A DNA stretch of 41,659 nucleotides from positions 1 to 41,659 of the forward strand of contig JAFYER010000004.1 of NCBI GenBank assembly GCA_017544165.1, given 5' to 3'. The number at the start of each line of letters is the position of its first letter. Within the stretch, counting starts at the first letter, position 1. The DNA comes from Bacilli bacterium. Lineage in GTDB: Bacteria; Bacillota_I; Bacilli_A; RF39; UBA660. Below the pieces are notes generated by a model. That model did not search any database, was not told the DNA's origin, and was given only the letters and a program-made list of their open reading frames with translations. A program made the position numbers and the translations under genes. This document shows positions 407 through 18,019 of this stretch, one piece after another.

Positions 407-448
407 CTAAATCAATATCAACCAGTTTATATTAGTTTTTTCATTCAT
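407..448 (-). CDS. Leader-type small ORF A (13 aa, MNEKTNINW...)
   Basis: A 13-codon ORF, MNEKTNINWLILI, with ribosome binding site AAAGGAAGTGA upstream. It starts 18 bases after the stop of the gene at 467-844. It is one of four copies of a repeat that always starts with ATG AAT GAA and keeps the KTNINW codons. It ends in TAG and leads into the 170-base spacer before the NADAR gene. It may be a translated leader peptide or the stranded 5' end of a duplicated gene; the sequence alone does not decide. Confidence 0.45.
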   Translation of the reverse strand: MNEKTNINWLILI

Positions 449-466
449 AGAAATCACTTCCTTTAC

Positions 467-844
467 TTATTTATACTTTGCTTTTTTATCACAATATTTT
501 TTATAGTATATTGGCAATTCAAATGTTAAAATTTTTTTCAAGTCATTATATAGTTTGTCTTTCAATAAATATGAAGATAATATCCATACTTTACCAACAG
601 TTAATGATTCATCGCGATTATCTTTAAGTTTATCTACAAGATCCCATTTAACATTCTTATATTGATTCTTAAGCTTATCACTGATTGATGACAAGGAAAG
701 ATCTACTTCGTCCACTAATTTACATAAGATAACCATTTCGTAGCTGTTATAAAAATATTCATCATCTTTGCCACTCGTTAAAATGACTAGTTCATTAATA
801 TTTGTAATAATTCTCTCAATAAATTTTATATCTTTCTTTAACAT
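467..844 (-). CDS. HepT/DUF86-like small protein, probably degenerate
   Basis: 125 aa from ATG at 844 (AAAGAAG upstream). The reading frame extends to a TTG at 886, but those 14 codons look like leader repeat, so the inner start is preferred. The pattern IERIITNINEL, then KLVDEVDLSLSSISDKL, KNVKWDLVDKLKDNRDE, and a final KLYNDLKKIL resembles the helical HepT (DUF86) RNase/toxin fold. The usual Arg-x4-6-His active motif after the conserved Trp is not seen. No MntA-type nucleotidyltransferase partner is adjacent. Family assignment is tentative; it may equally be an unrelated helical protein. Confidence 0.5.
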   Translation of the reverse strand: MLKKDIKFIERIITNINELVILTSGKDDEYFYNSYEMVILCKLVDEVDLSLSSISDKLKNQYKNVKWDLVDKLKDNRDESLTVGKVWILSSYLLKDKLYNDLKKILTFELPIYYKKYCDKKAKYK

Positions 845-883
845 AATTGCAACTTCTTTCACAAAAACTTTAACCATCAATAT

Positions 884-920
884 CAAGTATCAAATATTAT
901 GTTATTTTTGATACTTTTTT
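884..920. repeat. 37-base hairpin repeat R2, copy b
   Basis: Second copy of the repeat at 274-310, with the same 10-bp stem AAGTATCAAA/TTTGATACTT and two base changes in the loop. On the minus strand it ends exactly where a leader-like segment (TTG ATA TTG ATG GTT AAA, 869-886) begins, as though R2 had replaced the MNEKTNINW part of a fifth leader copy. Confidence 0.7.
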
Positions 921-1001
921 AGTTATTTTAATCATTATTTAATATATTTTTATTAAATTATTTAACAAGTATATACTTGTTTCAATATTTGTAAATTAAA
1001 C

Positions 1002-1526
1002 TTATTCGCAAGTTAAAGTATTATTACTTATTGCCATACAAGATGGGCCATCATTAATGCCAACATCAACTGTTCCGTTTATATTAGCACCAGATATAAG
1101 TTCATCTTTACAAATAATGTAATCGTCAAATTGTTCACATTTTTCTTGACCATATATCTCTTTTAAAATATTTATATTATCTTGATATTTATTACCATCA
1201 TTTGTTCCTTCAAGACAAAAAGCTTTACCATTTTCAATACCACAAGCAAATCCTCTTAATATTTTTTTATTATCATCTAATATATGTCCCAAGAAGAAAC
1301 GTCTTTGATTGTTTTCATCATATTTTAAAGTTTTATAGTTATTAGTATAATCATTTAATATTGAACTTTTTTCACCATATTGCTTTCCACCATCATAAAA
1401 ACTAAAAACACAATTTGGACAACTTTCAATTTGATTACTTCCAATTATTTTTTCTGTTTTTATACCACACCCAATTAATAATAATGGTAATATTACAAAC
1501 AATGCAACTTTGTACTCATATTTCAT
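1002..1526 (-). CDS. Lipoprotein with pilin-like C-terminal domain
   Basis: 174 aa. Signal peptide residues 1-19 with lipobox LLIGC (Cys20), so it should be lipid-anchored outside the membrane. The mature part has CPNC (36-39), then FFLGHIL, an ACGIENGKAFCLEG segment, NDG, and further paired cysteines to the C-terminus. It is clearly paralogous to the lipoprotein at 33784-34455, which has the same Cys spacing and IEGSTDG motif. The Cys/ENG/NDG pattern recalls globular domains of Firmicute prepilin-like proteins; this is inference. The ribosome binding site AAGGAGGAATT is strong. Leader ORF B overlaps its first codons, suggesting translational coupling. Confidence 0.75.
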   Translation of the reverse strand: MKYEYKVALFVILPLLLIGCGIKTEKIIGSNQIESCPNCVFSFYDGGKQYGEKSSILNDYTNNYKTLKYDENNQRRFFLGHILDDNKKILRGFACGIENGKAFCLEGTNDGNKYQDNINILKEIYGQEKCEQFDDYIICKDELISGANINGTVDVGINDGPSCMAISNNTLTCE

Positions 1527-1620
1527 AATTCCTCCTTAATAATTGTATCATCATATATAATAATGTTAATAGTTTAACCATCAAAACCAACCAGTTTATA
1601 TTAGTTTTATTTTCATTCAT
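1516..1620 (-). CDS. Leader-type small ORF B (34 aa)
   Basis: Starts MNENKTNINW with ribosome binding site AAGGTAATCCAA, then a hydrophobic stretch (LVLMVKLLTLLYMMIQLL) and a basic end. It stops at TGA inside the start region of the lipoprotein gene (ATG AAA TATGA), overlapping it by 11 bases. The hydrophobic, membrane-like tail is absent from copies A and D and different in C. The overlap is what one expects of a translation-coupled leader. Confidence 0.5.
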   Translation of the reverse strand: MNENKTNINWLVLMVKLLTLLYMMIQLLRRNYEI

Positions 1621-1637
1621 TTGGATTACCTTCTTTA

Positions 1638-2324
1638 TTATAATTCAATATTTAATAATTCATTTAAACTTTTAACTTCTTTAACATTATTTGAATTTTC
1701 TTTATTTTTTCTATTTAACCATATTGCATCTATACCTATTTCAAGACATGGTAAAACATCTTTTTCAACTTGATCTCCTACCATAAGCATTTGATCCTTA
1801 TTGATATTAAATCTTTTAATTATTGATTCATATAATCTAGGATCTGGTTTAGAGCAATCATACTCAGATGAAGTAGTAACAACTTCAAAAAACTTAAGGA
1901 TACCAGTTCTTGATAATTTATCTGTTTGTTGTTCTAAATCACCGTTACTTATAACACCTAATTTATAACCACTATTATACAATTTTTCTAACACATTATA
2001 AACATCATCAAATAAGCACCAATTATCCTCAAAAGATTTTAAATAAATTGAATATATTTCTTTTGGAGTTTTATCAAGTGGCATATCATATTCCTTAAAT
2101 AAATCAATTATTCTCCTGTTTCTTTGTTCATCATAAGATATTTCTTTTCTTGTATAAAATGCATAATGATAATCAGTTAATTCATCCCATTTTTTTGTAA
2201 ATGAAGCTAAATCAGTTTTACTATCAAATTTATATATATTATATAAATCCTCAATTGCGGCATACTGTGCCTTTTTAATATCAATTAGTGTAATATCTAA
2301 ATCAAAAAAAATCCATTTTTTCAT
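1638..2324 (-). CDS. HAD-superfamily phosphatase, subfamily IA (YjjG-like)
   Basis: 228 aa from the ATG at 2324, chosen because AAAGGAGAT lies just upstream; a 27-codon longer frame has no ribosome binding site. Motif I is FFDLDITL (nucleophile D8, D10), motif II VISNGD, motif III SKPDP, motif IV VGDQVEKD. The helical cap after motif I (YAFYTR...) is typical of YjjG-type pyrimidine 5'-nucleotidases, which dephosphorylate small phosphate esters or non-canonical nucleotides. Sits in the repeat-separated array, downstream of leader ORF C. Substrate not predictable. Confidence 0.85.
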   Translation of the reverse strand: MKKWIFFDLDITLIDIKKAQYAAIEDLYNIYKFDSKTDLASFTKKWDELTDYHYAFYTRKEISYDEQRNRRIIDLFKEYDMPLDKTPKEIYSIYLKSFEDNWCLFDDVYNVLEKLYNSGYKLGVISNGDLEQQTDKLSRTGILKFFEVVTTSSEYDCSKPDPRLYESIIKRFNINKDQMLMVGDQVEKDVLPCLEIGIDAIWLNRKNKENSNNVKEVKSLNELLNIEL

Positions 2325-2353
2325 ATTTTTATCTCCTTTTCTTAGGAGGTTAA

Positions 2354-2369
2354 AAGGTGTAATCACCTT
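2354..2369. promoter_or_regulatory. 16-base palindrome upstream of the HAD gene
   Basis: AAGGTG TAAT CACCTT is a perfect dyad 30-45 bases upstream of the HAD start codon. It could be an operator or an RNA hairpin in the leader. A second AGGAG-like stretch lies between it and the gene. No regulator is assigned. Confidence 0.35.
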
Positions 2370-2459
2370 ATCAATTCCTACCACTTTTTTATTAAAAATA
2401 GTCAATTTTAACCTATTTTTGTATATTTTAATATATTTTTCAATAAAACTTGTAAGATG

Positions 2460-2549
2460 TTAATTCTCACGAAACCTTGTAAATAAAGGATTTCTTAAAG
2501 GGGTTAAATAAATCGTAATCAACCAATTTATATTAGTTTTTTCATTCAT
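2460..2549 (-). CDS. Leader-type small ORF C (29 aa)
   Basis: Starts MNEKTNINWLITIY and continues with an unrelated Pro/Arg-containing tail to TAA. Its ATG overlaps the stop of the gene at 2542-2988 (ATGAATGA), and AAGGAAGGTAG lies upstream. The conserved codons match copy A except for a synonymous AAC to AAT change. The HAD gene follows 135 bases downstream. Confidence 0.45.
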   Translation of the reverse strand: MNEKTNINWLITIYLTPLRNPLFTRFREN

Positions 2550-2988
2550 GAGTACTACCTTCCTTATTTTTAATATATTCATCAATTTTATTTTCATATT
2601 TTTTTATATCTTCAATAAATCTTGGCTTAAATTGCTCCAAATATTTAATTATCAAATCAGCATGTTTTTCTAAATCAACATCATTAAATACATTATTAAA
2701 ATATTTATTTATTCCTTTTTTAGTATTTAATATATCTATATAGAATTCTAATAAATTAGACTTACCTATTTTTTCTTTTACCGAATAAACTATTGATAAT
2801 AATTGTTCTCTATTACAATCATACCTTGCTTTAAATCCATTAGCTCTAGAAAACATAATTAACATGCATCCTACAAATAATTTATCAGTTTTGTCAGATG
2901 GAAATGTCTTTTTTGAAAACTCAATTAGTGATTCAATATTATTATTTGAATAATCATCATACAATTCCATTATTATACGGTTTATCAT
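2542..2988 (-). CDS. Unknown helical protein in the repeat array
   Basis: 148 aa, not recognised. Ribosome binding site AAGAGGTGTGAAAA precedes ATG at 2988. The sequence is rich in Lys, Asn and Ile, with predicted helices throughout, no signal peptide and no membrane segment; it ends NKEGSTHE. Leader ORF D ends 30 bases upstream and leader ORF C overlaps its stop codon, so it is flanked by repeat copies on both sides like a cassette. Confidence 0.7.
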   Translation of the reverse strand: MINRIIMELYDDYSNNNIESLIEFSKKTFPSDKTDKLFVGCMLIMFSRANGFKARYDCNREQLLSIVYSVKEKIGKSNLLEFYIDILNTKKGINKYFNNVFNDVDLEKHADLIIKYLEQFKPRFIEDIKKYENKIDEYIKNKEGSTHE

Positions 2989-3017
2989 TTTTCACACCTC
3001 TTTTTCACTGATCTTGG

Positions 3018-3062
3018 CTAAATTGTCATAAACCAATTTATATTAGTTTTATTTTCATTCAT
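3018..3062 (-). CDS. Leader-type small ORF D (14 aa)
   Basis: MNENKTNINWFMTI then TAG, with ribosome binding site AAGAGGTAATCCAA identical to that of copy B over the last ten bases before the ATG. It is the first ORF after the extended -10 promoter at 3135-3143, so it would be translated at the head of the array transcript. It lies 29 bases upstream of the gene at 2542-2988. Confidence 0.5.
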   Translation of the reverse strand: MNENKTNINWFMTI

Positions 3063-3134
3063 TTGGATTACCTCTTTTTATAAAAGTTCTACCGTTAATG
3101 TCAGTAACAAATACCACTTTATTACATCATCTTT

Positions 3135-5918: not shown

Positions 5919-8195
5919 ATGAAATTTAGAAATTTATTTAATAGATTTTTTAAAAATCAAAATACTAGTAACTTCATTGCCGCTTTTGGTGATCTTGTAG
6001 AAATGCCTAAAAGAGAAGATTTTAATGATGAATTAAGTAATCTAAAAATTGATGAACTTAAATCTTTTTTTCGTGATATTTTAAATAAAAGCAAAACTTT
6101 AACTAGTACCTCTATTCATGATGATTCTTTACAACAACAATTAGATATGAATCTTGATCTTTTGATGAACATATCTTTTGATAAAGAAATAGAGCCTTTA
6201 AACGACGAAGAAAAAAGAATCAGAAGTCTAATTATCTATTCTAAACTAAAGTTATATTTAAATAGAATTATTGAACTTGAAAATGAAATAAAATATCGCT
6301 TGATTGCTCTAAAAGAATTAGAAAAAGAAACATTTGGTTTTAGTATTAAAAGTATTTTTAATAGAAAAAGCTTAATCAAAGAAGAGATTAATAATTTATT
6401 AGGAATATTATGTGTACTAAAAAATCAAAGATATGCTATTTTTAATAAAGTAAATGCATGCTCAATTGAATTTAAAACCATAAACACTTCAGATGAAGCT
6501 ATTAAACTAAATGGTTCAAAATATCTTACAAGTAGACTTAAAAGACTAAAAGGTTATGCTGATATTGTTTTATCTCAAGAACAAATTGATGATATATACT
6601 CTTTTGATGAACCGATTAACCAAATAGCAGTATTAGAAAGATATTTTGAAATTTATTCTTATACACATAGTAACGATGTTGATCAGTTAAGAGACGACTT
6701 ATTTTATTACACAAGAAATTTTAGAACAATGGTAAAATATGAAATGCCTAAATCATTTGATATAAACAGCTTAAAAAGTATTGAAGCAAAACTTAGAGTA
6801 CTTGATGAATTTGGCAAAAATGTTATTTCAATGGAAGACATATTTAATCTATATAAACTAATATTTAATTATAAAACACTGGATATTTATCAAAGTATGG
6901 AAACTTCCCTATTTCTTGGAATTGATAGTGATGAACGTGATTTTACTGAGTATTCGGTTTATGCCCAAATAGTCATGCAAATGATCGAGGAAATAAGAAA
7001 TGATAAAGACCATCTATTAACAATCCAATTTGACACTAAACATAAAGATTTTTGGAATACCTTTAATGCTATTTTAAATCCAGGCGCCGACACAGTTTAC
7101 GATGGTGTATATGATGCTAATGCTATATTAACAAATAATATATCACTAGCCTTTTTGCTTGCTACATATGGTTTTGATTTAAAGAGGTTTTTTAAAAAAG
7201 TAATGATTAAAACACCAGAATATATGCAAAACACCCGTAATGATGATAATGTTCCCTTGAAAGATCATTATGAATTTAAAATGGCTGATAAAATAACGCT
7301 AGAATCATTTGTTTCAGTCTTTAATATACTTGATAATTTGTATTATCTTGATAGATATACGCTTGACTACTTTTTAAATTATGATTTAAGGTTAATAGCT
7401 GATATTTATAAAATGATACATCCTAGTGTTTTAGGTAGAACGCCAGAATTTACTGAAGCAAAACATATTATTCCCGAAGGTATCATTACAATGATAAAAA
7501 GGTCAAAAAATCAAGACATGTATTCTATATCAGACCTAGTATTTGATGGACTTGTTAATCCTGGTCAAAGTAAAGAGATATATTTACCATCTTCATTAAA
7601 AGAAACTAATACACCTGTTTTCGAAGGAAAGTATTTTAATAGTTTTAATTTTAATAATGGCATTGAAAAGTTTTATATTGATAAAAATAGTAAACCAATC
7701 TTTGCAAATAAATTAATTATTCCATCTTCGATGAACATTGAAAAATATAGTTCTAATTATTATATAAGAAATGCTCAAGAATCAATATTTGGTTTTGGTG
7801 TGGATTTATTAGAAGAAGTTCATTTTACCTTTATAGGGGATTCTATAATACTTAACGACATATCATTATTAAGAGAGTTTTTCAATAAAATCATCTGGGT
7901 AAAAGACTACGGTTTCAAAACGTTACTATGCCAAATAGAAAAAATATATTTTTGGGAAGAAGACATATATAATGGCCGAAGCATTTATTTTACAAACGAA
8001 AATATTAATGATATTATCCGTAAAATTGCAAGAGATAATCATAAATTATATGAAAAAGCCTTAGACCACGTTTATGAAAGAAAACTATTTACCGATTTAG
8101 TAGTTAATCGTATCATTAGAATAATTCGTAAATCAACAGGTATTACCCTTTGTGAAAAGAAAAAAAATAATCAAAAAAGAGTATTAAAAAAATAA
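5919..8195 (+). CDS. Large paralogue 1, unknown, BspA-like repeats near the C-terminus
   Basis: 758 aa, ribosome binding site AAGGAAATACC. No signal peptide or membrane segment. The first about 245 residues are helical, contain a coiled-coil-like region (residues 95-165), and are nearly identical to the next gene. The second half diverges. Around residues 550-615 a pattern of YLPSSLKETNTPVF, then NNGIEKFYID, then KLIIPSSM resembles BspA-type leucine-rich repeats (LRR_5). Its last codons NQKRVLKK are part of the terminator hairpin. The function is unknown. The tandem duplication, including the 5' leader, is evident. Confidence 0.7.
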   Translation: MKFRNLFNRFFKNQNTSNFIAAFGDLVEMPKREDFNDELSNLKIDELKSFFRDILNKSKTLTSTSIHDDSLQQQLDMNLDLLMNISFDKEIEPLNDEEKRIRSLIIYSKLKLYLNRIIELENEIKYRLIALKELEKETFGFSIKSIFNRKSLIKEEINNLLGILCVLKNQRYAIFNKVNACSIEFKTINTSDEAIKLNGSKYLTSRLKRLKGYADIVLSQEQIDDIYSFDEPINQIAVLERYFEIYSYTHSNDVDQLRDDLFYYTRNFRTMVKYEMPKSFDINSLKSIEAKLRVLDEFGKNVISMEDIFNLYKLIFNYKTLDIYQSMETSLFLGIDSDERDFTEYSVYAQIVMQMIEEIRNDKDHLLTIQFDTKHKDFWNTFNAILNPGADTVYDGVYDANAILTNNISLAFLLATYGFDLKRFFKKVMIKTPEYMQNTRNDDNVPLKDHYEFKMADKITLESFVSVFNILDNLYYLDRYTLDYFLNYDLRLIADIYKMIHPSVLGRTPEFTEAKHIIPEGIITMIKRSKNQDMYSISDLVFDGLVNPGQSKEIYLPSSLKETNTPVFEGKYFNSFNFNNGIEKFYIDKNSKPIFANKLIIPSSMNIEKYSSNYYIRNAQESIFGFGVDLLEEVHFTFIGDSIILNDISLLREFFNKIIWVKDYGFKTLLCQIEKIYFWEEDIYNGRSIYFTNENINDIIRKIARDNHKLYEKALDHVYERKLFTDLVVNRIIRIIRKSTGITLCEKKKNNQKRVLKK

Positions 8196-8283: not shown

Positions 8284-10509
8284 ATGAAATTAAAGCAAAT
8301 ATTCAATAATTTTTTTAAAAAACAAAATACTAGTAATTTCATTGCTACTTTTGGCAATCTTGTTAAAATGCCCCAAAGAGAAGATTTTAACGATGAATTA
8401 AGTAACCTGAAAATAGATGAACTTAAAGCTTTTTTTCGTGATATTTTAAATAAGAATAAAACTTTAACTAGTACCTTTATTCATGATGAGCATTTACAAC
8501 AAGAATTAGATATGAATCTTGATTTATTAATGAACATATCTTTTGATAAAGAGATCGAACCCATAAATGATGAAGAAAAAAGAATCAGAAGTCTGATTAT
8601 CTATTCTAAACTAAAGTTATATTTAAATAAAATTATCGAATTAGAAACTGGAATTAAATATCGTTTAATTGCCCTTAAAGAACTAGAAAAAGAATCATTT
8701 GGTTTTAGTATAAAAAATATCTTTAATAAAAAAAGAGTTATTAAAGAAGAAATAAATAATCTCCTAGGTATATTATGCGTACTAAAAAATCAAAGATATG
8801 CTATTTTTAATAAAGTAAATGCTTGTTCAACTGAATTTAAAACTATTAATAATACTGATGAAGAAATAATAATCAGTGGTTCAAAATATCTTACAAACAG
8901 ATTAAAAAGACTTAAAGGATATGCAAATATCACTTTATCCCAAGAACAAATCAATGATGTAAATTCTTTTGAAGAGCCAATTAATCAAATTGCCGCTTTA
9001 GAAAGATATTTTGAAATTTATTCCTATACTCATAATAATGAAATAAACGACATAAGTTCCACATTAAAAGATAGTAGTTTAAAACAAGTTGATGGCAAAT
9101 ATATAGAAGAAATTGAATCAAAACTTAGAGTTCATGACGAATTTGGCAAAGCTAATATTTCAATGGATGATTTATTCAATCTATATAAATTAAAATTTAA
9201 TTATAAAATAATAAATATAAATCAAAATAATGATAATCCTATATTTCTAAGTCTTGATAATGACGAAAGAGATTTTACGGAGTATTCCATGTATGGACAA
9301 ATCGTTATGGAAATGATTGAGGATTTGATAATTGACAAGGATCATATTTTAAAAAATCAATTTGACACCAACAAAGATTTTTTTTGGGAATCGTTTAGAG
9401 CATTATTAAACCCTAACTATAATAAAGATTTAACCAGCATGTATGATATAAATACTATTTTGTCAGATAATTTGGTATTAGCATTTTTATCAGCTGCATA
9501 TCATAATAATTTAGCTGTTTTTTTTAGAGATTTTACAATCAAAACACCGGAACCCATGTTGAGTATAATTGAATTAGAGAAAAGAATACCACTTGATACT
9601 TTTTTTAAAATTTATGCTGCTGAGCTTAGCACATATTACGCGTTCACTGAACCATTGTCCGAATTAGAAAGTTATATAAATAGCGATGATTTTATAAGGC
9701 AATATCCTTCATTAAAAGCGATGATAGAGGTCTACCCAACGATTAATCCCGTAATTAGAGAGCCTTATGGACAAGCAGAGTATAATTGTTATCATATTCC
9801 CGAAGGAATTGTTAGTTTATACAAAAAAGATGAGCTGATTATATATCCCAAAAGGCTCCGTTTTATAGATAAATTTTTAACTCCGGGTTTTAGCAAATAT
9901 GTTTATACTCCAAAATCACTAAAAGAATTAAATACAAACGCCTTTAGCAGAATGATAATACAAGGATTAATCTTAAATGAAGGATTGGAAAAGCTATATG
10001 TAGATACCAATTCTAACTTGGTAGTAACTTATAAGCTATGCATTCCGTCAACATTAGAGGTTAAAGAAAGTAAACCATTATCTCAAGAAAGGGAGAAAAA
10101 ATCTTTTTTTGGATTTAATAGTGAATTTTTAGATGAGCTTAATTTTACTAATTTTAAAGAATCCATTATATTAAATGATAAAAAATATTTAAAAGCAATT
10201 TTTTCAAAAATAATATTCATAGAGTATTTTTTTAGAACTAATATAAAAAGGATAATCTTATGGGATGGTGATTACAATGCTCCCAAAAGTATAACCTGTA
10301 TTATAAAAAATGACGAAATTAAAAAAATAATTGATGATGTAGCTGCAAAACATCCCAAAATTTATCGTAATGCTTTAAAATACGGATACGAAAAAGAATT
10401 CTTTATTAGTTTAATTGTAGATAGATTTATTTCAGTTGTTTATAAAAAAAGTGGTTTTACCCTTTGTGAAAAGAAAGATAATAATCAAAAAAGAGTACTA
10501 AAAAAATAA
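8284..10509 (+). CDS. Large paralogue 2, unknown, BspA-like repeats near the C-terminus
   Basis: 741 aa. Ribosome binding site AAAGGAAATATT sits in a leader that copies that of the preceding gene. The N-terminal 250 residues share most positions with paralogue 1; residues about 255-275 differ in length, and the region after about 380 is only loosely similar. YTPKSLKELNTNAF, NEGLEKLYVDTNS and KLCIPSTLEV (residues about 540-605) give a clearer LRR_5-like pattern than in copy 1. Both proteins end in CEKKxNNQKRVLKK. A conserved head with a variable tail suggests diversification of a recognition part, but no activity can be assigned. Confidence 0.7.
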   Translation: MKLKQIFNNFFKKQNTSNFIATFGNLVKMPQREDFNDELSNLKIDELKAFFRDILNKNKTLTSTFIHDEHLQQELDMNLDLLMNISFDKEIEPINDEEKRIRSLIIYSKLKLYLNKIIELETGIKYRLIALKELEKESFGFSIKNIFNKKRVIKEEINNLLGILCVLKNQRYAIFNKVNACSTEFKTINNTDEEIIISGSKYLTNRLKRLKGYANITLSQEQINDVNSFEEPINQIAALERYFEIYSYTHNNEINDISSTLKDSSLKQVDGKYIEEIESKLRVHDEFGKANISMDDLFNLYKLKFNYKIININQNNDNPIFLSLDNDERDFTEYSMYGQIVMEMIEDLIIDKDHILKNQFDTNKDFFWESFRALLNPNYNKDLTSMYDINTILSDNLVLAFLSAAYHNNLAVFFRDFTIKTPEPMLSIIELEKRIPLDTFFKIYAAELSTYYAFTEPLSELESYINSDDFIRQYPSLKAMIEVYPTINPVIREPYGQAEYNCYHIPEGIVSLYKKDELIIYPKRLRFIDKFLTPGFSKYVYTPKSLKELNTNAFSRMIIQGLILNEGLEKLYVDTNSNLVVTYKLCIPSTLEVKESKPLSQEREKKSFFGFNSEFLDELNFTNFKESIILNDKKYLKAIFSKIIFIEYFFRTNIKRIILWDGDYNAPKSITCIIKNDEIKKIIDDVAAKHPKIYRNALKYGYEKEFFISLIVDRFISVVYKKSGFTLCEKKDNNQKRVLKK

Positions 10510-17117: not shown

Positions 17118-17606
17118 TTATTTAACCTTACCTATTTTTTTAAAAGGGAAAACTATTATATTCGTACTTCCCATTATTGCTTTTTTGGGTACCGGTCCAA
17201 AATATCTAGAATCAAGTGACACCACTCGATTATCCCCTAAAAGAAAATATTCATCTTCTTTTAAAGTAATTTCATCAAAATCAGCTGTTTCACCATTAGC
17301 GTAAGGATCATCATATTTTACATCATTTATATATATTATTCCGTCTTTACAAAATATTTTTTCATTAGGAAGACCAATAATTCTTTTGATAATAAGACTT
17401 CCTTCGACACTTTTATCAGCAACAATGATATCCTCTCTTTCAAAGCTATGATCAAGTAAATTTAAAATCATAATATTACCTTCATGTAGTGTTTTATCCA
17501 TCGAAGAACCATTTACTCTAACAAGCGTAAAAATAAATGACTTAATAAGTAAGACAATTACAATAATTATTAAATAAGAACTTATTTCTTTAAGAGCATT
17601 TTTCAC
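17118..17606 (-). CDS. lepB: Signal peptidase I
   Basis: 162 aa, GTG start with AAAGGA upstream. One N-terminal membrane anchor (residues 9-28), then NGSSMDKTL with catalytic Ser35, IIKRIIGLP with catalytic Lys74, and GDNR...DSRYFGPV near the C-terminus. It cleaves signal peptides of exported proteins at the outer membrane face. Short length is usual for Gram-positive SipS-type enzymes. It has its own promoter after the rplS terminator. Confidence 0.95.
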   Translation of the reverse strand: MKNALKEISSYLIIIVIVLLIKSFIFTLVRVNGSSMDKTLHEGNIMILNLLDHSFEREDIIVADKSVEGSLIIKRIIGLPNEKIFCKDGIIYINDVKYDDPYANGETADFDEITLKEDEYFLLGDNRVVSLDSRYFGPVPKKAIMGSTNIIVFPFKKIGKVK

Positions 17607-17663: not shown

Positions 17664-17692
17664 AAGAAAAGGAAAGATTAATTTCTTTCCTT
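17660..17692 (-). terminator. rplS terminator
   Basis: Minus-strand stem AAGGAAAGA / TCTTTCCTT around AATTAA, followed by TTCTTTT. The left arm encodes the last residues of L19 and the loop holds the stop codon. Confidence 0.8.
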
Positions 17693-18019
17693 AACTTTGT
17701 ATTCTTTTCGCATATTCTTGATAAAGTTAAGCTTAGCTCTTCTAACTTTACCTTTCTTAATAACTGTTATCTTATCAATAGTTGGTGCATTAACAGGAAA
17801 TATTCTTGTAACAGCAACTGTACCACTTTTCTTACGAACAGAGAAAGTTTCTGATACACTTCCACCCTTCTTAGCAATTACTAATCCTTCGAAGGCTTGA
17901 ATTCTTTCTTTTTTTCCTTCTTTTACCCAAACATCAACTCTAACAGTGTCTCCTACGCGAAATTCTGGTACATCCTTACGAATGTGTTTTTCATTAATCT
18001 TATCGATTAAATTAGCCAT
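17678..18019 (-). CDS. rplS: 50S ribosomal protein L19
   Basis: 113 aa, normal length. FRVGDTVRVDVWVKEG, ERIQAFEGLVIAKKGG, TFSVRKKS and VERIFPVNAP-like (VTRIFPVNAP) are the standard L19 motifs. It sits at the 30S-50S interface of the ribosome. GAGGTGAAATA is the ribosome binding site. It has its own promoter, a structured leader and a terminator, so it is largely an independent unit rather than part of the usual rpsP-trmD-rplS cluster, which is not present here. Confidence 0.98.
   Translation of the reverse strand: MANLIDKINEKHIRKDVPEFRVGDTVRVDVWVKEGKKERIQAFEGLVIAKKGGSVSETFSVRKKSGTVAVTRIFPVNAPTIDKITVIKKGKVRRAKLNFIKNMRKEYKVKERN

Follow-up and report, generated by a model that had tools for sequence, protein, structure and literature searches.

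The window analysed here is a whole contig (C13; JAFYER010000004.1) of 41,659 bp in the 1.05-Mb draft genome of a Bacilli bacterium of the family UBA660. At one end it carries a series of minus-strand genes separated by a repeated mini-open reading frame (mini-ORF). This series is very probably a mobile cassette array, integrated site-specifically between lepB and the essential gene rbgA, within the first codons of the latter, and a large serine recombinase (LSR) is the likely enzyme behind it. Comparison among related genomes shows a defined cassette anatomy, independent exchange of the two halves of the repeat, a common breakpoint, horizontal transfer, and a recombinase clade adjoining rbgA.

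Four copies of the repeated block occur on the minus strand. Their start codons lie at 448, 1620, 2549, and 3062, and a Shine-Dalgarno-like sequence accompanies every copy. Coordinates, alignment, and a junction hidden Markov model (HMM) agree on these copies, which the initial annotation had found from the letters alone. Trained on other genomes, the HMM returned exactly these four sites in the window (E-values 2e-18 to 3e-14). The 20-mer core is expected 0.13 times in dinucleotide shuffles and occurs four times, a number reached in no shuffle. Translation gives MNEKTNINWLILI and a stop at 448 (13 codons), a peptide beginning MNENKTNINWLVLM at 1620 (34 codons), one beginning MNEKTNINWLITI at 2549 (29 codons), and MNENKTNINWFMTI and a stop at 3062 (14 codons). 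As first described, an AAT codon indel and AAC/AAT changes are the sole differences within the block, and the peptides stop after 13 to 34 codons ahead of differing genes. These encode, in the same order, a NADAR protein, a lipoprotein-like ORF, a HAD hydrolase (PF13419, 4e-29), and a 148-aa protein without known function; the NADAR gene is partial at the contig end and gave a weak Pfam match (PF08719).

The repeated block is the 5' end of rbgA. Arrays in many relatives end at a copy reading MNENKTNINWYPGHM or MNENKTNINWYPGHMAKTKR, the N-terminus of the ribosome-assembly GTPase RbgA. In element-free loci, rplS, lepB, and rbgA are adjacent, as in L245 (RbgA start MSINWYPGHM) and L248 (MEKINWYPGHM), and the extra genes of other loci are all located between lepB and rbgA, on the rbgA strand. 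The window has rplS and lepB at 17-18 kb; its array occupies 0.4-3.1 kb and is directed off the contig end. The rbgA gene of the source genome is located at the end of another contig, C1.

Each copy is a junction of two cassettes. The left half (ribosome-binding site (RBS), ATG, and RbgA-like N-terminus) is the 3' end of the upstream cassette, and the right half (TGG, then TTGATTACGATTTA) the 5' end of the next one. Linkage was measured over 189 non-redundant array blocks, with positions -50 to -21 as the left and +3 to +49 as the right segment. Mean z was 4.41 for left-left, 4.42 for right-right, and 0.18 for left-right comparisons, so the halves assort independently. Finer mapping placed the switch in the interval -10 to -2, counted from the end of the TGG. 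Junctions from different loci that share a left flank (>85% identity over 140 bp) formed 80 pairs that diverge from the TGG onward. The clearest pair is L051/L079, in which a two-gene cassette is 97.3% identical over 2,376 bp and identity stops at ATTCAATGG; rbgA follows in one locus and a NADAR cassette in the other, and the two rbgA genes are themselves 72% identical. Identical cassettes beside different neighbours, independently assorting halves, and breakpoints at one dinucleotide strongly support the recombination borders with cassette exchange that the initial annotation had offered as one of two readings. Its constant 5' end belonging to the gene behind it has to be turned around, as the constant part is the 3' end of the upstream cassette instead, and the annotation had recognised neither rbgA nor the serine recombinases.

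A search with the right half alone recovered 39 more junctions whose left halves are unrelated in sequence. Their common plan is an RBS, an ATG, 5-17 codons, ATHAAY or CAA, and TGG. They have little beyond AAYTGG in common with rbgA or with each other, and they switch at the same point. Such junctions weigh against a route without a dedicated recombinase, in which short repeats derived from the rbgA 5' end would have built the arrays by homologous recombination or tandem duplication. The repeated 30-bp type-A block could indeed seed homologous recombination. That route is nevertheless very improbable given the 39 junctions with little shared sequence, the confinement of breakpoints to one dinucleotide within a dyad-symmetric site, the fixed orientation of 283 of the 291 cassette genes (co-oriented with rbgA), and the recombinase clade at the target.

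The two halves also differ in how they vary. Entropy at the three codon positions is 0.05, 0.09, and 0.51 bits in the left half, where variation sits at third positions, and 1.11, 1.23, and 1.28 bits in the right half, where all positions are alike and no codon periodicity appears. An in-frame start with a Shine-Dalgarno-like sequence was present at 222 of 265 block junctions and at 33 of 38 others; shifting the frame lowered the count for the block junctions to 33 and 1. Because of this codon-like variation and conserved in-frame start, the left half is taken to be under selection as an RbgA start, which each right end of a cassette becomes when it lies beside rbgA. The mini-ORF run after the TGG is a by-product. 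The other reading in the initial annotation held that the mini-ORFs are conserved leader peptides regulating each downstream gene, by attenuation or translational coupling. Conservation of the RBS and start codon at the 222 junctions would suit it, and some cassette leaders close with a terminator-like hairpin ahead of the gene (L238, L130). It fails to account for the loss of codon periodicity after the TGG, where the part towards the gene is free of coding constraint, for the identity of the conserved peptide with RbgA's own N-terminus, and for a left half that moves with the upstream gene rather than the downstream one. Regulatory leader peptides are thus extremely improbable.

The symmetry of the junctions agrees with the involvement of a serine recombinase. 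Dyad symmetry peaks at the TG of the TGG, with a complementarity of 0.51 at both the block junctions and the 39 others versus 0.28 at rbgA starts. One pair of ends gives the dyad AAA.CGT.ATCAA-TG-TTGAT.ACG.TTT, and the junction dyad spans ~30 bp. A serine-integrase attP with a 2-bp exchange is expected to have this layout, the attB being different.

Serine recombinases are found at the target itself. The 412-aa LSR of L255 was used as a query, and the positions of the best 25 matches were counted by hand. Twenty of these 25, from 20 genomes, share the strand of rbgA and precede it by <4 kb, mostly by no more than ~100 bp; the listed matches below the best 25 are not so placed, except for first members of the same pairs. 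All three LSR domains, PF00239 (Resolvase), PF07508 (Recombinase), and PF13408 (zinc ribbon), are found in the clade. It occurs in two forms, either a single ~410-aa gene (L255, L275-L280) or a 566 + 525-aa pair that ends a conjugative element with ParB, TraG/VirB4-like, MobL, and coupling-protein genes (L235-L238). Each LSR element supplies rbgA with its own N-terminus, and LSR-coding elements have cassette-type left ends (L238, L255, L275). In L238, the first LSR pair is followed by AAAACCGTTATCAATTGG and then TTGATTACGATTTATAGTAAC, a cassette-type right half, and in L255 an element starting at a standard block has the LSR as its first gene. In the source genome, the end of an LSR gene (C-terminal zinc ribbon; PF13408, 1e-13) stands just before rbgA and shares 95-96% identity over 400 bp with LSR genes of genomes G191 and G090.

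Several larger structures have accreted at the same site. L281 (G016:C32) carries an LSR element and then a ParB-led conjugative element, and in L238 (G122:C10) a tandem pair of conjugative elements stands upstream of rbgA. The conjugative element at rbgA in L236 (7147-10600) and L260 (1792-5240) has a tyrosine recombinase gene between two oppositely placed hsdS-like genes beside hsdR/hsdM; this region is likely an invertible type I specificity locus. In L287 (G001:C45), an LSR pair has behind it, at ~4295, an rbgA-like start (SSTNENPSVAKNVINCYPGHM) from which no rbgA continues. The intact gene is on contig C54, and the start is a stranded or duplicated one.

In the proposed mechanism, a cassette has one gene or two, directed like rbgA. 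A short half-site (TG[GCT]TTGAT...) plus a leader forms its left end; its right end has an RBS, a start codon, and 7-17 codons ending in ...ATHAAY, which serve as the new rbgA start when adjacent. The TG within the conserved TGG (Trp) codon is the predicted point of strand exchange, so that insertion would add a cassette and a new N-terminus for rbgA, and orientation would be fixed because TG is not a palindrome. An interior junction joins a right end to a left end, which yields the repeated mini-ORF, and the last junction joins a right end to rbgA. The LSRs coded by some elements at rbgA, whether single ~410-aa proteins or ~566 + ~525-aa pairs, would probably act in trans on recombinase-less cassettes. 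The model would imply LSR catalysis of these events, circular intermediates, insertion on the rbgA-proximal side, and the order in which cassettes were added.

Certain observations weigh against the model. Assemblies cannot show circles or activity, and the array (C13) and the rbgA gene with its LSR end (C1) lie on separate contigs, which synteny suggests are linked. Three array genomes (G042, G130, G021) have no match to the serine-recombinase domain PF00239, and their arrays would therefore have been made by a lost or incoming enzyme. Cassette right ends (MNENKTN) are mostly unlike those of the LSR elements, and direct mobilisation by those particular LSRs is accordingly presumed. Stacking would need a hybrid site (cassette right half plus rbgA) in the role of attB, an uncommon arrangement for a single serine integrase. 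Left and right halves also show no covariation within junctions and hence no cognate pairing, a pattern expected for random neighbours.

The three genomes lacking PF00239 matches also lend some weight to movement of the same array by a tyrosine recombinase, either chromosomal XerC/XerD or a foreign integrase, in the manner of Acinetobacter pdif modules or of the streptococcal integrative and conjugative elements (ICEs) that target rbgA. Xer-type recombinases are present in every array genome, with exactly two tyrosine recombinases in G000 and G122, and in L065, L084, and L246 a XerC-like gene comes after topA, within a few kb on the downstream side of rbgA. Moreover, the tyrosine integrase of Tn5253 targets the rbgA 5' end (PMC6079316). 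On the other side, no tyrosine integrase was seen beside rbgA or inside a cassette in the loci screened, XerC excepted. A dif-like match was not seen at the junction, although the search for dif-like sites, with matches about as numerous as in its reversed control, was uninformative. An axis on a dinucleotide with exchange at TG suits serine recombinases, and the cassettes share their ends with LSR elements. Taken with these points, a tyrosine recombinase is an unlikely agent, and serine recombination stays the preferred explanation.

Recurrence of the block in relatives, proposed as a check in the initial annotation, was borne out with varied genes behind it. With a 32-bp block and <=3 mismatches allowed, 41 of 193 family genomes contained it, several in long tandem runs of a single orientation; the reversed control pattern gave 0. 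The longest run noted has 16 junctions (L120). A scan of GTDB contigs returned 80 loci, most from metagenome-assembled genomes of rumen and gut Bacilli. In a class-wide sample, matches were present in 13 of 54 family members versus 1 of 341 others, and this sole match outside the family (L289) was rejected as an array, being a plain rbgA start. The strict pattern gave only chance matches in ten genomes of the same genus (L007 and L008 inspected). The single match in a viral scan (L119) has no junction and no rbgA-like or right-half context, and it was set aside.

The non-redundant set comprises 212 cassettes with a median of 933 bp, of which 154 hold a single gene. Their 291 genes fall into 165 protein families, 110 of them singletons, and the cargo is mixed (GNAT, NUDIX, methyltransferases, HAD, uracil-DNA glycosylase, peptidase S51, NADAR). 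A defence island was considered and rejected, the PADLOC matches being scattered and of single families and the cargo not defence-dominated. RhuM/BRO/DinD-like cargo was first suspected of being the recombinase, a role since rejected.

Leaders contain further features. Many have a second copy of the right half-site at ~+145 to +168 after the TGG (e.g., L044, L264, L092). Its class agrees with that of the first copy in its own cassette (score >=24 in 45 of 256, versus 11 with leaders of other cassettes), and it is possibly a second binding site for a recombinase or one for a regulator. At ~+30 to +48, several right-half classes have a palindrome of the type CCTTATAAAATAAGG, followed by an A-rich tract. 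Rfam returned nothing at the gathering threshold on three array loci.

In the window, the array can be followed from junction 1 towards the contig end, all features being on the minus strand. Junction 1 (3007-3077) is supported by alignment and the HMM (E = 1.5e-15) and consists of the RBS, the ATG at 3062, the core, the TGG at 3035-3033, and the right half, with a predicted crossover at TG 3035/3034. Cassette 1 (2525-3034) holds the gene of unknown function (2542-2988), whose stop overlaps the next start (ACTCATGAATGA); from block to block it has 89.7-89.9% DNA identity with cassettes in L120, from another genus (G162), and L096. Junction 2 (2475-2565; ATG 2549, TG 2525/2524, E = 2.4e-15) leads into cassette 2 (1593-2524), with a TTGATTACGATTTA-class leader and the HAD hydrolase gene (1638-2324). 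This leader is 82-87% identical to leaders of cassettes bearing other genes. Junction 3 (1580-1636; ATG 1620, TG 1593/1592, E = 2.7e-14) precedes cassette 3 (424-1592), which contains the lipoprotein-like gene (1002-1526) and a gene for a 125-aa protein (467-844). A remnant of the lipoprotein gene lies directly upstream of rbgA in the same-genus genome G003 (L192). Cassette 3 also has a half-site copy at ~887-866, where the initial annotation had suspected a fifth, truncated block; the right half is there (TTGATATTGATGGTTAAAG; compare TTGGTTTTGATGGTTAAAC at the 1620 copy), and the left half is not. Junction 4 (372-464; ATG 448, TG 424/423, E = 2.2e-18) opens cassette 4 (1-423), whose leader has its second half-site copy at ~283-254 and whose NADAR gene (1-234) is cut by the contig end. 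Cassette 4 is 93.7% identical over 426 bp to L079 and 97.2% over 250 bp to L042.

The RbgA of the source genome has 49-53% protein identity to that of other genera, and the window cassettes have 90-97% DNA identity to theirs, which shows recent horizontal movement of single cassettes. Outside the array, lepB (17118-17606) and rplS (17678-18019), both on the minus strand, were taken from the ORF list and assigned by sequence, with no family search. Two adjacent plus-strand genes (5919-8195 and 8284-10509) encode paralogous proteins of 758 and 741 aa with no recognised function and point away from the array.

Textbook cassette arrays are integrons, which arise through the action of a tyrosine recombinase at single-stranded, folded sites. 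The rbgA arrays resemble them in their tandem, mostly single-gene, co-oriented, and recombinase-less cassettes, diverse cargo, junction repeats, and single insertion locus. They differ in a double-strand-type dyad on TG, in a target that is the coding start of an essential gene, re-supplied by each cassette, and in the serine recombinases at the site. The dyad covers ~30 bp, and the predicted exchange falls at a TGG codon rather than in a GTTRRRY box. None of the 17 array genomes exceeded the cut-off for IntI (TIGR02249), and scores were at Xer level only, as in all 14 control genomes. The pdif (XerC/XerD) modules of Acinetobacter plasmids are likewise small and bounded by recombination sites, whereas they are Xer sites on plasmids, alternate in orientation, and involve no gene start.

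Closest in machinery are the staphylococcal cassette chromosome and the Enterococcus cassette chromosome, which use CcrAB LSR pairs, ~50-bp att sites with imperfect inverted repeats, and variable cargo at the rlmH 3' end (PMC6222049). LSR pairs, such att sites, variable cargo, and integration at a conserved gene are common to both systems. The rbgA arrays instead occupy a 5' end, with ~0.9-kb units, mostly single-gene and most without a recombinase, in up to 16 tandem junctions, and their right ends bear an RBS and N-terminal codons. Closest in target are Tn5253 and other streptococcal ICEs, whose attB takes in the first 20 nt of rbgA and the 63 nt before it, with the N-terminus kept (PMC6079316, PMC4701971). 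Each is one large element with a tyrosine integrase and no cassette array, in contrast to the serine recombinases at the rbgA junction here. In the open-access literature, to which the search was confined, no paper was found on LSRs at rbgA or on serine-recombinase gene-cassette arrays.

These comparisons lead to a broader proposal, which we consider somewhat favoured, of a 'serine integron', a self-standing capture system in which elements resident at rbgA would use their serine recombinases to gather and reorder single-gene cassettes that lack a recombinase. Each cassette would have to supply a working RBS and RbgA N-terminus, and the host gene would therefore check and transcribe the array. 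Cassette insertion would account for the RbgA N-termini of the family being a patchwork of unrelated short peptides. If correct, the arrays would offer a simple serine-recombinase test system with many natural site variants. They would also constitute a second independent route to cassette capture in gut Bacilli, with cassette size and diversity comparable to those of integrons, and an ordered, readable record of gene gain in uncultured rumen bacteria.

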